Of a stretch of 64,000 nucleotides of DNA, positions 54,372 to 60,610 are shown in pieces (the stretch's first letter is position 1; every line of letters begins with the position of its first letter). The position numbers and the translations under genes are program-made. The DNA is from Planctomycetales bacterium (GTDB lineage: Bacteria; Planctomycetota; Planctomycetia; Isosphaerales; Isosphaeraceae): NCBI GenBank assembly GCA_027451885.1, contig DAIDHX010000015.1, positions 1-64,000 on the forward strand, read 5' to 3'. The notes beneath the pieces were generated by a model. The model made no database searches and was not told where the DNA came from. It saw nothing but the letters and a program-made list of their open reading frames with translations.

Positions 54372-55415
54372 TCAATAGCCCTTGTCCGAGCGCGGGAACT
54401 TGCTGACGTCGATGTAGAGATAAGCGCCACCGGTGGTGGTGGCGAGCCGGGCCAGGGGAGTTTGCTCGCCAAGGCTTGTTCCCATGCCGAATTCGATTGC
54501 CTGGATCCGCGTTGAGCCCACGCTGGTGAGAACCTTGTTGACGTCGGAGCTTGACATCATATCGGCGTCGGTCAAAAAGAAGATGACCTCGGGTTTGATC
54601 TCCAGGGCCTTGGCAAGCGCCCGCATGTGGTCGGTGCCGCCGTCGGCCTTGATGGAGGCAAGCTGGCTTTCGATCCAGCCCTTGTTGGCCCTGGTGGCCG
54701 CCATCAGACCTTCTCGGCCGCGGGGATCGCTGAGCATCACGGCCTGGAGATTGTAGAAGATCACGGCGACCGAGGCGTCCGGGGGAAGCTGGCCCACCGA
54801 CGCCAGGAGCTCGCGCTTGGCGATGTCGAGCGATCTTCGCGATTCCATGCTGCCCGAACAGTCGATCACATAAGCAAACGAGTGTGCATGATCCTGGGCG
54901 CCGAAGAACTGCGTGCCTGGCCCAATCCCTGGTCCAACCCCGCCGACCGAACCACCGCCGGAACCACCTCCACCTCCCGATCCTGTGCCCGGGAGAATCC
55001 CCTGGCCCACAGTCGCCGGGCCAGGCAATTTCAGGGTCTGCGTCTCTGACTTGTTCGGCGGCGGTGTCGGCAAGATCTCGTCGAGCAAGCTTTCAGCGAG
55101 CGGATCGCGGCTGATATCCTCCTCGGCCTGGGTCTTGTTTTCCACGCGGGGGAGCCGGCTCGTGCCGCCGACCTCGCCCAATCCGCCGCCCCCTTCGCCT
55201 GGGTGGGGGCGCGTCTTGTTCGCCTCGTCCTGGGGATTCTCGAGCTCGGCGTGGAGCGCCCTGGGGCTGCGGCTCTCCGCGGGGAGTGTGGCGTGAAAGA
55301 CCACAAGCGAGGCCGCCAACAGCAGGAGCCCGTGGAACAGGCCCGACGTCACCAGCGATCGTGGATCGGTGAGCGGCGTTCGGCCCAGGTTTCGCGCCTC
55401 GCCATTCGCGGACAT
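54372..55415 (-). CDS. VWA-domain membrane protein
   Basis: A 347-residue protein. One N-terminal transmembrane segment (LFHGLLLLAASLVVFHA) is followed by a Gly/Pro/Ser-rich linker with a long glycine stretch (~140-165), then a von Willebrand factor A domain (~178-345). The metal site is DCSGSM (D185-S187-S189) with GGTDH and FLTDADMM. No ferrochelatase or ATPase domain. The domain should be periplasmic and bind a protein partner via the metal site. It is last in the exbB-exbD-exbD-OB-like-VWA operon, 15 bases after the preceding stop. Confidence 0.9.
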   Translation of the reverse strand: MSANGEARNLGRTPLTDPRSLVTSGLFHGLLLLAASLVVFHATLPAESRSPRALHAELENPQDEANKTRPHPGEGGGGLGEVGGTSRLPRVENKTQAEEDISRDPLAESLLDEILPTPPPNKSETQTLKLPGPATVGQGILPGTGSGGGGGSGGGSVGGVGPGIGPGTQFFGAQDHAHSFAYVIDCSGSMESRRSLDIAKRELLASVGQLPPDASVAVIFYNLQAVMLSDPRGREGLMAATRANKGWIESQLASIKADGGTDHMRALAKALEIKPEVIFFLTDADMMSSSDVNKVLTSVGSTRIQAIEFGMGTSLGEQTPLARLATTTGGAYLYIDVSKFPRSDKGY

Positions 55416-55430
55416 GGAGGGTGCCTCGCG

Positions 55431-56207
55431 CTACTGGCCCGGCCCGGGTGGAGAATCCTCCGTCTGGGATTGGGGCTCAATAAATTGTATCGGTGGATCG
55501 CCGTGGGAGTCGTCGTCAATCCGTGCTTTTCTGGGTTTTGCGACCGAGCGCGACCACCATCCCCAGAGCACGATCACGCCCGCCGCGGGCAGCGCAATGA
55601 GCCAGCCAAGAGGCGTCCAGGCTGAAGGCGGCGGGCTCTGTGCGCGCCTGTCCGACCAATCCGCGGCAGGTTCGAGCCGCTCGGTCGGTCCCGGCCCCAC
55701 GATTAACGGAGCATGCCGCTCGCCGCGCTCGGAGGGATAGCCCACCTTGCGGAGAAACGTTCCCGTAAACCGTACAGTCTCACCAACCGGCGCAGCCGGA
55801 GAAGCTGTGCTTGCGGTCTGAGAGTCGGGGCAGACAACGCAGCAAAGATGCCCTTTGGGATCGGTGAGCCAGAGCTCGACCAGGGCAGGAAAGTCGCCCA
55901 GGGCCGGCTGGTGAAACGCGCGGGCAACGCGCCCTTCCACCACAACGCGTCTGCCCTGGTAACGGGGGGCGTTTTGCTCGAGCATCAACGCCGTGGCGGC
56001 GACGGGCAGCTCAAGGTCGTTGGCAAGCGTGGCGGCGGGTTTGCCCTGGAGCGCTTGACGGTAGGCGGCAAGCTCGTCGAGCCCCAGCCGGGGCGCTTGG
56101 GTCTGCTGATCCTGGGCAGCACGTGCTTGAGAATCCAGGTTGGATGAGGCAACAGCCCAGCCAACCACGAGCGTTGCGAGCCAGAAGTTGGCGGAGTAAG
56201 CAATCAT
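55431..56207 (-). CDS. Hypothetical membrane protein with OB-like segment
   Basis: A 258-residue protein. A signal sequence (FWLATLVVGWAVASS) leads to a periplasmic part with strand-rich GRRVVVEGRVARAF and VRFTGTFLRKVGY, which resemble an OB fold. A transmembrane helix (GWLIALPAAGVIVLWGWW) precedes a hydrophilic acidic tail. The start codon overlaps the exbD stop by four bases (ATGA). It appears only in this operon as far as I can see. It may connect ExbD with the VWA protein; that is inference. Confidence 0.75.
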   Translation of the reverse strand: MIAYSANFWLATLVVGWAVASSNLDSQARAAQDQQTQAPRLGLDELAAYRQALQGKPAATLANDLELPVAATALMLEQNAPRYQGRRVVVEGRVARAFHQPALGDFPALVELWLTDPKGHLCCVVCPDSQTASTASPAAPVGETVRFTGTFLRKVGYPSERGERHAPLIVGPGPTERLEPAADWSDRRAQSPPPSAWTPLGWLIALPAAGVIVLWGWWSRSVAKPRKARIDDDSHGDPPIQFIEPQSQTEDSPPGPGQ

Positions 56208-56743
56208 GGCCTGTTGCCGATTTCAGGAACGCTTCCAGGCTGGTTGAGCCTGACCGCGGTTGCGCCCGCGGCCTGGCACACAGCCACAATCTGAGCGACC
56301 GGCTCATAGCGCAGCGTCTCATCAGCCACGAGTCGAACCCGTAGCGGCTTTCCATCCAGAAGCGCGTCGTATTTTCTGAGCCGATCCCCAAGGGCAGCCA
56401 GGTCAGGCACGGGAGAATCGCCCAGATGAAGACTCTTGAGATCGCCCAGATCATCGGCCCGGGCACGGACGAGCAAGTCGTTCTCGAGGTCGGAATCCAC
56501 CTGCCTGGGCGCGCGCGACTCGTCGGCCTTGCGCTCAACCGACGGCAAGGCCGCGGGAGTGGCGGGCAGGTCGAGGTCGAGATTCATTTCGTCCGAGGGC
56601 GCCTTGAAGGTCAGGATGAAAAACGCCAGGAGCTGGAACGCCATGTCGAGCATGGGGGTGACAGGGAAAATAATCTCGCCCGCGCCGTCTGACCTGGTTC
56701 TGCGCGAGCGAGGGACTTCACTCGGTGCAAGGGAGCTGCTCAT
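56204..56743 (-). CDS. exbD: ExbD/TolR family protein (second copy)
   Basis: A 179-residue ExbD. The N-terminal membrane helix carries the proton-conducting Asp: FPVTPMLDMAFQLLAFFIL. The periplasmic part has the RVRLVADETLRYEPVAQIV segment and ends NQPGSVPEIGNRP. ExbD proteins form proton channels with ExbB. It starts at the TGA of the first exbD (ATGA overlap) and its own stop overlaps the next gene. A long charged insert (~60-110) precedes the conserved periplasmic domain. Two ExbD types imply a hetero-assembly. Confidence 0.9.
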   Translation of the reverse strand: MSSSLAPSEVPRSRRTRSDGAGEIIFPVTPMLDMAFQLLAFFILTFKAPSDEMNLDLDLPATPAALPSVERKADESRAPRQVDSDLENDLLVRARADDLGDLKSLHLGDSPVPDLAALGDRLRKYDALLDGKPLRVRLVADETLRYEPVAQIVAVCQAAGATAVRLNQPGSVPEIGNRP

Positions 56744-57219
56744 CGTGTTACTCGCTTGAGAACCACGAAGCGAAAGTGGGCGAACCCGCGGTCCTGCGCG
56801 GCAGCCAGCACACGTCTCAATGCGCCATAAGGCGCGTCACGATCCGCACGCACAATCACCTGCGTGGGCAAGACGTCGTTGCCAGCGGTTGCAGCTCCCA
56901 GCGCTTCCAGCCCAGCGCGACGCAGCTTGGCCTGATCGGCCCACCAGGCGGCCGTGCGGTTTTCCTCGATCGCGCCTGAGGCGCCGAGAATTCTACCCCG
57001 AGCGTCGAGCTCGACAATCATGCGATCAAACGCCATATCCTCGCCTGGAAGCGCGGCAGGGGCGACTGGCAGCCGCACCTCGCGGGTTGCCCCTTCAATC
57101 CGTGTGCCAAAATGCACAAGCATCATGAAGAACGTGATGAGCTGGAGCACCAGGTCAAGCAAGGGCGTGAGGTTGGGCGCGAGCGTGTTCGAGCTATTGC
57201 GTAAGCGCGGGCGCGGCAT
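56740..57219 (-). CDS. exbD: ExbD/TolR family protein (first copy)
   Basis: A 159-residue ExbD with NLTPLLDLVLQLITFFMML (Asp in the membrane helix) and the periplasmic TQVIVRADRDAPYGALRRVL. It is the closer match to canonical ExbD. GGAG lies nine bases upstream. It starts 18 bases after exbB and is coupled to the second exbD by an ATGA overlap. It should work with the ExbB protein in proton-driven energy transfer. Confidence 0.92.
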   Translation of the reverse strand: MPRPRLRNSSNTLAPNLTPLLDLVLQLITFFMMLVHFGTRIEGATREVRLPVAPAALPGEDMAFDRMIVELDARGRILGASGAIEENRTAAWWADQAKLRRAGLEALGAATAGNDVLPTQVIVRADRDAPYGALRRVLAAAQDRGFAHFRFVVLKRVTR

Positions 57220-57237
57220 GAGTGGAGACTCCGCGGC

Positions 57238-58191
57238 TTAGCCGTCGGAAGGTTCAACCGGCGGTAAGGCCGAGCGAGGCGTGCCGGCAGCCTGAGCCGC
57301 AGCGAGCGCCGCACTGACCGCAAACGGATGCGGAGGCGCCACGGGACCCTGCGCGGGCGCCTGCTGCCGAACCCCAGGCGCAAAACGCTCAAGCCATTGC
57401 TCCGCCATGGTCTCAATCTGCAGCGATAGCCGCGCGATCCGATTGCGAAACCACGAATGGAAGTAAATCGCCGGGATCGAGATCGCAATCCCCTCGAGCG
57501 TGGCGAAAAGCGCCGTCGAGATCCCCGCCGCAAGCTGGCTTGCCTGGGGCGTCGCCCCCGCAGTTGCAATAACGCGAAACGACATGATCATGCCATAAAC
57601 CGTTCCCACCAGCCCGATCATCGGCCCCAGCGTGCCCACCGTCGCCAGGTAGGTCGTGCGGTGCTCCATCTCCATGACCATGTCTTCGTTGGCGAGCTCA
57701 AGCGCCCGCCGGGCTTGCGCTTGCCCGAGCGGGAGCTTGCGCACCCCCGCGGCCAGAACCCTGGCGAATGGCGAGGGATCTGTGATCAGGCGATTGTAGG
57801 CGTCGGGGAAACGCGACTGGTCGAGCAATTCGGCCAGCTCACTTGTGAGCCGTTCCGGGATCGCAACGGTGAGGCGATAATTCATGGCCATCCAGGCCAC
57901 AAGCGCGATCAGATAGAACGACATGAGCGCGATGACGAGCCCAATCGGTCCCGACGCGCGGGCCATCCAGGCGAGGAACGATTCTTGGGCATCGACCCGC
58001 GGCTCTTGCGCGTCGTTCCTGGAGACGCGTCCCGCGTCATCATCGCGGGGAGTGGATGACGTCACGCCCGAACCCTGAGCCCGGGCGCGCGCGGGCAAGA
58101 TCGCCAGGGTGGTCGCCACGGCGATCACGATCAAAAAAAGCGCAGGCCAGGCCCTTCGAACCAGCCGGCCAGCGGAGATCGATGCAGTCAC
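57238..58191 (-). CDS. exbB: ExbB/TolQ family protein with signal peptide
   Basis: A 317-residue MotA/TolQ/ExbB-type protein. A cleavable-looking signal (ALFLIVIAVATTLAILPARARA) precedes an acidic linker and the three-helix core: GPIGLVIALMSFYLIALVAW, VGTLGPMIGLVGTVYGMIMSF and GISTALFATLEGIAISIPAIYF. Canonical ExbB lacks the signal. It would form the pentameric stator around ExbD. Start GTG 58191 has GGAGG ten bases upstream. No TonB or TonB-dependent receptor gene is in the window, so the driven partner is probably the VWA protein. Confidence 0.92.
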   Translation of the reverse strand: MTASISAGRLVRRAWPALFLIVIAVATTLAILPARARAQGSGVTSSTPRDDDAGRVSRNDAQEPRVDAQESFLAWMARASGPIGLVIALMSFYLIALVAWMAMNYRLTVAIPERLTSELAELLDQSRFPDAYNRLITDPSPFARVLAAGVRKLPLGQAQARRALELANEDMVMEMEHRTTYLATVGTLGPMIGLVGTVYGMIMSFRVIATAGATPQASQLAAGISTALFATLEGIAISIPAIYFHSWFRNRIARLSLQIETMAEQWLERFAPGVRQQAPAQGPVAPPHPFAVSAALAAAQAAGTPRSALPPVEPSDG

Positions 58192-58263: not shown

Positions 58264-58542
58264 TCAGGCAGGATCGTCTTCGAGCGTGCGCTCAAGCGCG
58301 CTGGCGTAGCCCGCGAGCCCATCCAGGTGCTGAGCCTCAAGCCGAGTGCGTAGATGCATGATTCGCCCGCGCAGGTCACCGTAATCAACTCGAGTCAGCC
58401 GAATGCGCCCACGAACCGCCCGGTGCGCCTCCTGTGCCAGCGCGCGAAGCTGGGCGCAAAGCTCGCCCGGATCGGGCTCATGCCTCGCATCCCGCGGCGC
58501 TGTGTACTCGCTGCTCATCAGTTGTGCCTTCGTCAGCAACAT
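58264..58542 (-). CDS. Small helical hypothetical protein
   Basis: A 92-residue protein, mainly alpha-helical, rich in Arg, Leu and Glu (ELCAQLRALAQEAHRAVRGR, HLRTRLEAQHLDGLAGY). No Cys or signal peptide. ATG 58542 has GGGAGG about seven bases upstream; the frame extends to 58635 without features. It lies 72 bases upstream of exbB on the same strand but is not obviously part of that operon. Family not recognised. Confidence 0.55.
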   Translation of the reverse strand: MLLTKAQLMSSEYTAPRDARHEPDPGELCAQLRALAQEAHRAVRGRIRLTRVDYGDLRGRIMHLRTRLEAQHLDGLAGYASALERTLEDDPA

Positions 58543-58722
58543 CGAGCGGTCCTCCCAGCCCGTTGAATCCACACTCCTACTGTAGGTCAGCGTGCTCGAA
58601 ACTGGGCCATTTCGAGACCGAATGACGCGCGGCAAGGAAGGTGAGGCTTCGCGCGCACGGCAGGACTCAGTCTTCAGTCCATCATAAGACGCAGAAGGTC
58701 GAATGATTGTTCGCGGGGATTT

Positions 58723-60330
58723 TCACGCCCTGCGCTGAGCTCGATCTTGCCCAGCACGCGAATTGAGCCAGGCTTCCACGACAGCGTGGTCATCGAAGGA
58801 GGTTACGCGGTTTGCGATGATCTGGTAAGCCTGGCGGCCTTTTCCGGCGACAAGCACGGTGTCGCCAGGCTGAGCATCGGCGAGGGTGGCTTCGATGGCG
58901 GTCTGGCGGTCGGGGAGAGCGCGGACACGGCCTGGTTGAATGAAGCCGGCGAGGAGGTCGTCGAGGATCTGATTTGGATCCTCGTCGCGCGGGTTTGTGG
59001 TGGTGAGGGTGACGCGATCGGCGAGGGCCTCGGCGACGGCGGCGATGGCCTGGCGTTCTGGGCGGTTGCCGTCTCCTTCCGCGGAAACGACGGCATGGAT
59101 GCGTCCGGCAGAGATGGCTCGCAGCGCGAGCAGTGCTTCCTTGAGGGCGAGAGCCGTCCGCGCGTCGTCGATGCGGATATCGAAATCCTGGCCGTGATTC
59201 ACCTGCTCGAGCGAGCCGGCGAGTGCGCGGACGCTTTCGAGACCTGCCTGCACGTAGTCGGCGGGGATCTCGAGTGCCCAGGCGAGGGCGGCGGCGGCTG
59301 TGGCAGCCGCGGCGGTGCGCGGGCCGATGAGCGGCAGAGCGACCTCAAGTGAGCGCTCGAAACCCGTGAGCGAAAGCCGGATGCCGCTGGCGTCGGATTG
59401 CGTAACGCGGCCCCAGACGTCGACGCCGCGATCAAGCGAGCTGGGATTCATCGCGAACGCCACGCGATGCGCGTCCAGATTGACGCCGCCCAGGATTTCG
59501 GCATTGGGGTCATCCGCGCAGACGATGACTACACCACCGGGAAGGACCTGGCGGGCAAGCCTGGCGAGAGTGCGGCGGCCGCCGCGAGCGACGTCGTCAG
59601 GATACCCCGGCAGGGTTCCCGAGTCGGCGGCGAGCAGGGCATGCAGCTCGATGCCCGCGAAAGCCCTGCGCTCGATGGCGGCCAGAGGCGCCTCGAGAAT
59701 CGCGCCTGAGCAACCCGCGCCCGCAAGCTCGGCCATGAGTGTGGCAAGCGCGGAGGCCGATGGAATGAAGTCGCCGGCGGGCGCGCCTAGCCTGCGCCCC
59801 AGTGTGCGTGCGTCCTGGCCGTCGTCAAAGCCAGCGCCCAGAGGACGCATCGCCGCACCGTCATGGAAGCCAAGCGCACCCACGAGCCCGGTGCGTTCGC
59901 CTGCCTCGGCCAGGATCGCTCGCGCATAGAGCGCTGTCAGGCCGCGACCCAGCATCCCAGCCACGCCGATCGTGGCGAGCTTGCGCGACGGATCACCCGC
60001 GAGCGCCTGGCAAATTTGCCCGAAGGCCGCCGCGCCGTCGTTCACCACAACTTGTAATCGCCCCGCGACATCGCTGGGACGCTCCAGAATCACCCCGGCC
60101 GCGCCCCGCCGCAGCGCGTCGGCCACGAAGTCATGGCCGTCGTAGCCAGCGGGCGTGCGGCGCGTGGCCACAAACACCTGTCCCGGCTCGAGACGCCTGT
60201 GATCGTCGGTGCATCCTGTCACTTGCCAGTCGGCTGCGCCGACAAACTGGCCCTCCGGAAAGAGCCGTCGCAAGCTGACCGAATGCATTCCACCACGCCG
60301 CGACGAACGGTCAACGAACCACCGCGCCAT
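58723..60330 (-). CDS. MurE-like Mur ligase with degenerate active site
   Basis: A 535-residue protein aligned along its length with UDP-MurNAc-tripeptide synthetase MurE. The N-terminal domain has LEPGQVFVATRRTPAGYDGHDFV. The central ATP loop should read GTNGKT but is GVAGMLGRGLT; the EVSSHA-type motif is EAPLAAI, and TNLxxDHLDYHG is ADSGTLPGYPDD. In the C-terminal domain YAHTP is DDARTA, DNPR is TNPR, while VLVAGKGRQAYQII and FDDHAVVEAWL remain. The fold is kept but ATP binding and ligation are probably lost, so it is a pseudoenzyme. ATG 60330 has AAGGAGG nine bases upstream. The open reading frame is intact, arguing against simple decay. A functional murE must be elsewhere. Confidence 0.85.
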   Translation of the reverse strand: MARWFVDRSSRRGGMHSVSLRRLFPEGQFVGAADWQVTGCTDDHRRLEPGQVFVATRRTPAGYDGHDFVADALRRGAAGVILERPSDVAGRLQVVVNDGAAAFGQICQALAGDPSRKLATIGVAGMLGRGLTALYARAILAEAGERTGLVGALGFHDGAAMRPLGAGFDDGQDARTLGRRLGAPAGDFIPSASALATLMAELAGAGCSGAILEAPLAAIERRAFAGIELHALLAADSGTLPGYPDDVARGGRRTLARLARQVLPGGVVIVCADDPNAEILGGVNLDAHRVAFAMNPSSLDRGVDVWGRVTQSDASGIRLSLTGFERSLEVALPLIGPRTAAAATAAAALAWALEIPADYVQAGLESVRALAGSLEQVNHGQDFDIRIDDARTALALKEALLALRAISAGRIHAVVSAEGDGNRPERQAIAAVAEALADRVTLTTTNPRDEDPNQILDDLLAGFIQPGRVRALPDRQTAIEATLADAQPGDTVLVAGKGRQAYQIIANRVTSFDDHAVVEAWLNSRAGQDRAQRRA

Positions 60331-60610
60331 CGGCCCAAGCCTCCTTGCCAAGCTCGCCCCGCCCGCGCCACGCAACGCCAGATGATCGGGATCGACCAGA
60401 AGCCCATCCCCATCACTCACGCCACGCCCCTGGCCGCAATCCACTCTCGATCGCGGCCCGCGGACGCAACATCCACCGCGTTCCCTCGCGGGGTGCTCGT
60501 CGTGTTCGCGGCGGCATTCTTGGTCATTCCCCAAAAAAAGGCAATGCCAAGCTCGATTTCTGCCGATCACTCACAAGATCCCCCTCGAAACACGCAGCGC
60601 ATCTCAAACG
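60331..60610. other. Intergenic region
   Basis: Region upstream of the MurE-like gene, between it and the terminator of the GT87 gene. Apart from the ribosome-binding site AAGGAGG (~60340) I see nothing definite. The longer frame of the MurE-like gene reaches into it but is not supported. Confidence 0.4.

Follow-up and report, generated by a model that had tools for sequence, protein, structure and literature searches.

MurE is the UDP-MurNAc-L-Ala-D-Glu:meso-DAP ligase (EC 6.3.2.13), and the planctomycete cell wall was disputed for decades, in part by counts of mur genes. According to the portions of Henriques et al. 2025 (PMC12283558) drawn on here, Pirellulales, Isosphaerales and Gemmatales lost murA, murC, murD, murF, murG, murJ and ftsW and kept murB; murE is not among the losses listed in those portions, and the loss of the pathway in Isosphaerales is already published. 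A comparative genomics study of four Isosphaeraceae scored Paludisphaera borealis as having murE and, in the sections used here, lists the gene among those for peptidoglycan with no remark on motif loss (PMC5352709). Dead MurE motifs are mentioned in the cited portions of neither paper (PMC12283558, PMC5352709), and our literature search returned nothing on Mur ligase pseudoenzymes in the context of peptidoglycan. Plants retained MurE in the form of PAP11, which belongs to the plastid RNA polymerase (PMC12681378).

The MurE-like gene described here is located in a window of 64,000 nt (the whole stretch of DNA that was analysed, from the start of contig DAIDHX010000015.1) and occupies positions 58723..60330 of the minus strand, comprising 535 codons plus a stop. 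The frame 58723-60330 is open on the minus strand only, the plus strand there holding stops, and translation of the minus strand from 60330 to 58723 gives a protein of 535 aa that begins with MARWFVDR. A Shine-Dalgarno sequence (AAGGAGG, 60340..60346, minus strand) precedes the ATG by 9 bases and is kept in the Isosphaeraceae orthologues, which supports the start at 60330; together with the conservation of the N-terminus, it excludes a wrong frame or start. The earlier note had described an intact frame with the landmarks of MurE, and this description was confirmed by the 535 unbroken codons and a match to the NCBIfam model TIGR01085 (MurE) with E=1.4e-65 and 222 bits, which is under the curated cut-off of 257.3; in the Pfam search, Mur_ligase_C alone was recognised. 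Structure prediction, proposed earlier as a check, yielded a confident three-domain MurE fold (AlphaFold2 with an input alignment of proteins from the window and related loci, mean pLDDT 84.6, pTM 0.83). The Foldseek matches of this predicted model were MurE structures along the whole length (TM 0.7-0.86), the best by E-value being 8r6s chain Q with a TM of 0.78, approximately equal to the bacterial MurE 4bub. The window protein thus has the three-domain Mur ligase fold and the family-level sequence match of a MurE, and resembles canonical MurE further in its full-length homology and its place on the tree next to planctomycete murE.

All parts of the protein are given on the minus strand. It starts with an N-terminal tail of the pattern M-x-R-W-F-x-D-R (residues 1-16, 60283..60330), of which residues 1-14 are predicted to be disordered, followed by domain 1, the UDP-binding domain of MurE (residues 17-118, 59977..60282), by domain 2, the ATPase or central domain (residues 119-372, 59215..59976), and by domain 3, assigned as Mur_ligase_C by Pfam and alignment (residues 373-535, 58726..59214).

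The difference from canonical MurE is in the active site. With MurE of E. coli K-12 from NC_000913 as the motif reference, the P-loop TGTNGKT reads AGMLGRG, the degenerate motif GMLGRG being placed by motif alignment at residues 125-130 (59941..59958), and the GxxGK[ST] pattern required for ATP is missing. EVSSHG became EAPLAA with only the E kept, TNLSRDHLDYHGD is replaced by ADSGTLPGYPDDV, where the alignment position of the lost HLDYH stretch is loose, YAHTP by DARTA and the carbamylated Lys by Leu. The metal and substrate residues of MurE, i.e., the carbamylated Lys and those of SSH and DHLDYH, are therefore not found (Leu, EAPLAA and ADSGTLPGYPDDV stand in their places). In domain 3, the motifs of amino-acid specificity are partly retained: DNPR became TNPR (residues 445-448, 58987..58998), with NPR retained here and in most orthologues, and GKGHE became GKGRQ (GKGR at residues 496-499, 58834..58845), with GKG retained and the Arg common to 21/27 orthologues. 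The proposal that every active-site motif has been replaced is correct for the P-loop, SSH, HLDYH, YAHTP and GHE but goes a little too far, since NPR and GKG are retained. Among the canonical MurE sequences compared (8 planctomycete and 11 other), all these residues but one were present in every sequence, and the sole exception, the SSH histidine, is Gln in 2/11 non-planctomycete sequences; this near-invariance excludes a chance loss of the motifs.

A full-length orthologue was found in 32 of the 45 Isosphaeraceae genomes searched, with Singulisphaera acidiphila, Paludisphaera soli and Aquisphaera insulae among the carriers, whereas 13/45 have no full-length copy and six genera (g6, g9, g11, g12, g13 and g20) show none. 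The orthologues form one clade with 100/100 support and are vertically inherited within the family, and their frames are intact at identities down to 35-40%. The murE counted in P. borealis (PMC5352709, in the sections used here) very probably belongs to the same family, as Paludisphaera-type orthologues fall in this clade. Its nearest relatives on the tree are MurE-like orphans from families f5 and f7 of the same class (support 89/80), and next out is the true murE of families f2 and f6. Like the window protein, the f5/f7 proteins are orphans without PBP, MurG and FtsW, but their P-loop is intact and HLD/H partly so, DNPR and GKGHE being lost instead; judged by these residues, they appear to represent an earlier or different stage of decay. 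Orphans of the f5/f7 type were seen in the wall-gene-poor families in G040, G045, G049 and G057 (L028, L029, L046 and L047).

The erosion of the motifs can be followed across the 32 orthologues. The SSH histidine, the last His of HLDYH and the Tyr and His of YAHTP are retained in none of them. GxxGK[ST] is kept in 13/32, the carbamyl-Lys in 17/32 and both in 9/32. With the P-loop columns left out of the tree building, at least six changes of the P-loop Lys were required, indicating that the loss of this lysine was repeated and tolerated; the window genus has R at this position (GMLGRG, GIMGRT, GLAGRT), while the relative G006 still has GSFGKT. The earlier note had held that relatives with an intact P-loop would speak for recent decay, and this applies in part: the window lineage lost its P-loop fairly recently, because 13/32 relatives keep the motif, but the loss of SSH, DYH and YAH is family-wide. 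The persistence of P-loop and carbamyl-Lys leaves room for residual nucleotide binding in a minority of orthologues. One might accordingly ask if the protein has remained catalytically active, with the altered chemistry of a ligase or ATPase that acts on a different nucleotide-sugar, as the nine orthologues with both features, the NPR and GKG of domain 3 and the MurB with a retained active-site motif in these genomes could suggest. We regard this as improbable, since the SSH, DYH and YAH residues are missing from 32/32, the window protein has additionally lost the P-loop lysine and the carbamyl-Lys, and there is no MurA or MurC to provide the normal substrate. Amide-bond formation is presumably no longer performed by the window protein, and its lineage probably does not hydrolyse ATP.

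Selection on the gene is evident from pairwise Nei-Gojobori estimates. Between closest orthologue pairs, dN/dS is 0.08-0.28, and loss of the P-loop does not raise it: the lowest values include 0.08-0.09 in three pairs without the P-loop lysine (G018-G031, G011-G028 and G023-G004), and the window gene versus its genus mates gives 0.20-0.24; these comparisons share branches and the values are not independent. Domain 1 exceeds domain 3 in identity in 321/325 Isosphaeraceae pairs, compared with 2/55 pairs of canonical MurE and 10/21 pairs of f2. In 13/13 pairs, domain 1 has accumulated less amino-acid change than domain 2, usually about half as much, and domain 2 is the least constrained in most pairs, while synonymous divergence is roughly alike across the domains in these 13 pairs. 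A constraint at the DNA level as the cause of the domain 1 conservation was rejected, because synonymous changes are as common there as elsewhere in most pairs, the first 16 codons being too few for such a judgement. The tail M-x-RW[FY]-x-DR is present in 30/32 orthologues, despite the predicted disorder of residues 1-14. The constraint has thus shifted towards domain 1 and this conserved tail with its predicted disorder. With catalytic residues lost, the fold predicted to be intact, purifying selection and presence in most of the Isosphaeraceae, the selected pseudoenzyme postulated in the earlier note is supported.

These data also bear on the possibility of a slow relic, a gene without purpose since the loss of peptidoglycan that is turning into a pseudogene. 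Such decay would fit the stepwise erosion of the motifs, the absence of the gene from several genera and the situation in the near-complete genome G022 (L021, C1:3521267-3522742), where the gene start is intact and approximately 60 residues of domain 1 cannot be aligned, as if the frame had shifted out and back. The scrambled domain 1 of G022 is possibly a recent decay, and together with the loss in some genera it means that the gene is dispensable in places. For the family as a whole we give the relic little credence, because frames remain intact across it at 35-40% identity, dN/dS remains far under 1 even where the P-loop has gone, and both the ribosome-binding site and the tail are conserved.

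The earlier note had further suggested a regulator or scaffold of peptidoglycan synthesis and a search for a canonical murE elsewhere in the genome. In the own genome, a draft of 316 contigs that is 98% complete, no canonical murE was found by searches with P0001, PF08245 and PF02875; the MurE-like gene is the single MurE homologue, and the only other Mur-type matches are two pieces of FolC. A hidden canonical murE was rejected as well, the sole PF08245 match being a FolC split over two contigs. Among murA, murC, murD, murF, murG, mraY, SEDS polymerase and transpeptidase, none in this genome passes its family model, so that MurC, MurD and MurF, with which a MurE works in the same cell, are missing. 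The same absence was observed in complete or near-complete Isosphaeraceae genomes (G025, G028, G029, G036 and G021). In 36/36 searched Isosphaeraceae relatives, MurG, MurA, MraY, FtsW/RodA and transpeptidase PBPs were absent at the family level, with PBP matches in G005 as the only exception, and MurC, MurD and MurF were absent at that level from the searched Isosphaeraceae too. Among 59 relatives, matches at or near the family standard for MurG, MraY, FtsW/RodA and transpeptidases were confined to f2 and f6 (8 genomes), apart from the PBPs of G005, and those for MurA to f2, f6 and one f4 genome just below the cut-off. Judged by score, the weak matches to the MurA and MraY models in other families are probably AroA and other sugar-phosphate transferases. 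G005 has three PBP matches, one adjoining a foreign canonical murE on contig C163; this murE was rejected as a family member, as it shares the contig with the PBP, comes from a bin that is 5% contaminated and differs from the Isosphaeraceae copies, and both genes are probably contamination from another phylum. Loss of catalysis with a kept fold would suit a pseudoenzyme with a regulatory or scaffolding part in the cell's own peptidoglycan synthesis, but no such pathway remains, which is consistent with the losses given in the portions of PMC12283558 used here, and, barring an unrecognised peptidoglycan pathway, this function is very unlikely. The window gene instead appears, from the homology searches, to be the only surviving murE descendant in an Isosphaeraceae genome stripped of the peptidoglycan pathway.

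MurA makes the MurB substrate. MurB, with its active-site motif QxSGCxFKNP retained, was nevertheless found in 58/59 genomes (own copy at C228:4-519) and may itself have another role, being kept though MurA is missing in most genomes. In 11 Isosphaeraceae genomes (L179-L189, e.g., G030 C454:13377-14783) we also observed a MurC homologue in which the P-loop is fully replaced (GTHGKT became forms such as GGREAS) and the ESD and DHxD motifs are gone, apparently a second Mur pseudoenzyme with the same fate as MurE. The adjacency of this dead MurC gene to murB, which is direct in almost all cases, and the near-universal MurB raise the thought of a repurposed relic set with a joint role in peptidoglycan-free envelope or budding-division biology. 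However, the dead MurC was not found in the window genus and the genes are unlinked, leaving such a joint role with a small probability. A more specific version, in which MurB, dead MurC and dead MurE were rebuilt into a non-catalytic envelope or budding module with MurE as the hub via domain 1 and the RWFxDR tail, is speculative and somewhat less improbable.

The genomic surroundings were inspected too. A small uncharacterised protein is encoded directly downstream of the MurE-like gene (58264..58635, minus strand), and its homologues adjoin the orthologue in several other Isosphaeraceae (cluster c2, 7 loci). Further downstream, at 54372-58191 of the window on the minus strand, ExbB/MotA-like and ExbD-like proteins are encoded with a VWA-type protein, an order also found in G002. 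No stable operon or partner was found, as the neighbours of the MurE-like orthologues differ between genera, and a conserved operon was dropped as a functional clue.

Taken together, we consider it fairly probable that this MurE descendant has been repurposed as a binding protein that is non-catalytic and works via domain 1 and the tail. Domain 1, with the face of the former UDP pocket, and the disordered RWFxDR tail would bind either a partner protein or a ligand resembling a nucleotide-sugar, and the role of scaffold would fall to domain 3 and the decayed ATPase domain. By analogy with the MurE-like PAP11 of plant plastids, such a protein would most likely serve as a structural component within a larger assembly. 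Both would be MurE proteins retained for work outside the wall, in organisms whose peptidoglycan gene set is incomplete, whereas PAP11 keeps most catalytic residues and works in plastids (PMC12681378). The likeness is an analogy of fold, seen in the Foldseek match to 8r6s chain Q, and gives no sign that the bacterial protein contacts RNA polymerase.

The 'murE' of Isosphaeraceae is probably dead as an enzyme and occurs in genomes that lack the remainder of the pathway, and its presence is therefore unusable as evidence for peptidoglycan. It provides a bacterial parallel to the second life of MurE in plants, and because culturable species carry the orthologue, the role of a MurE without a wall is directly testable.
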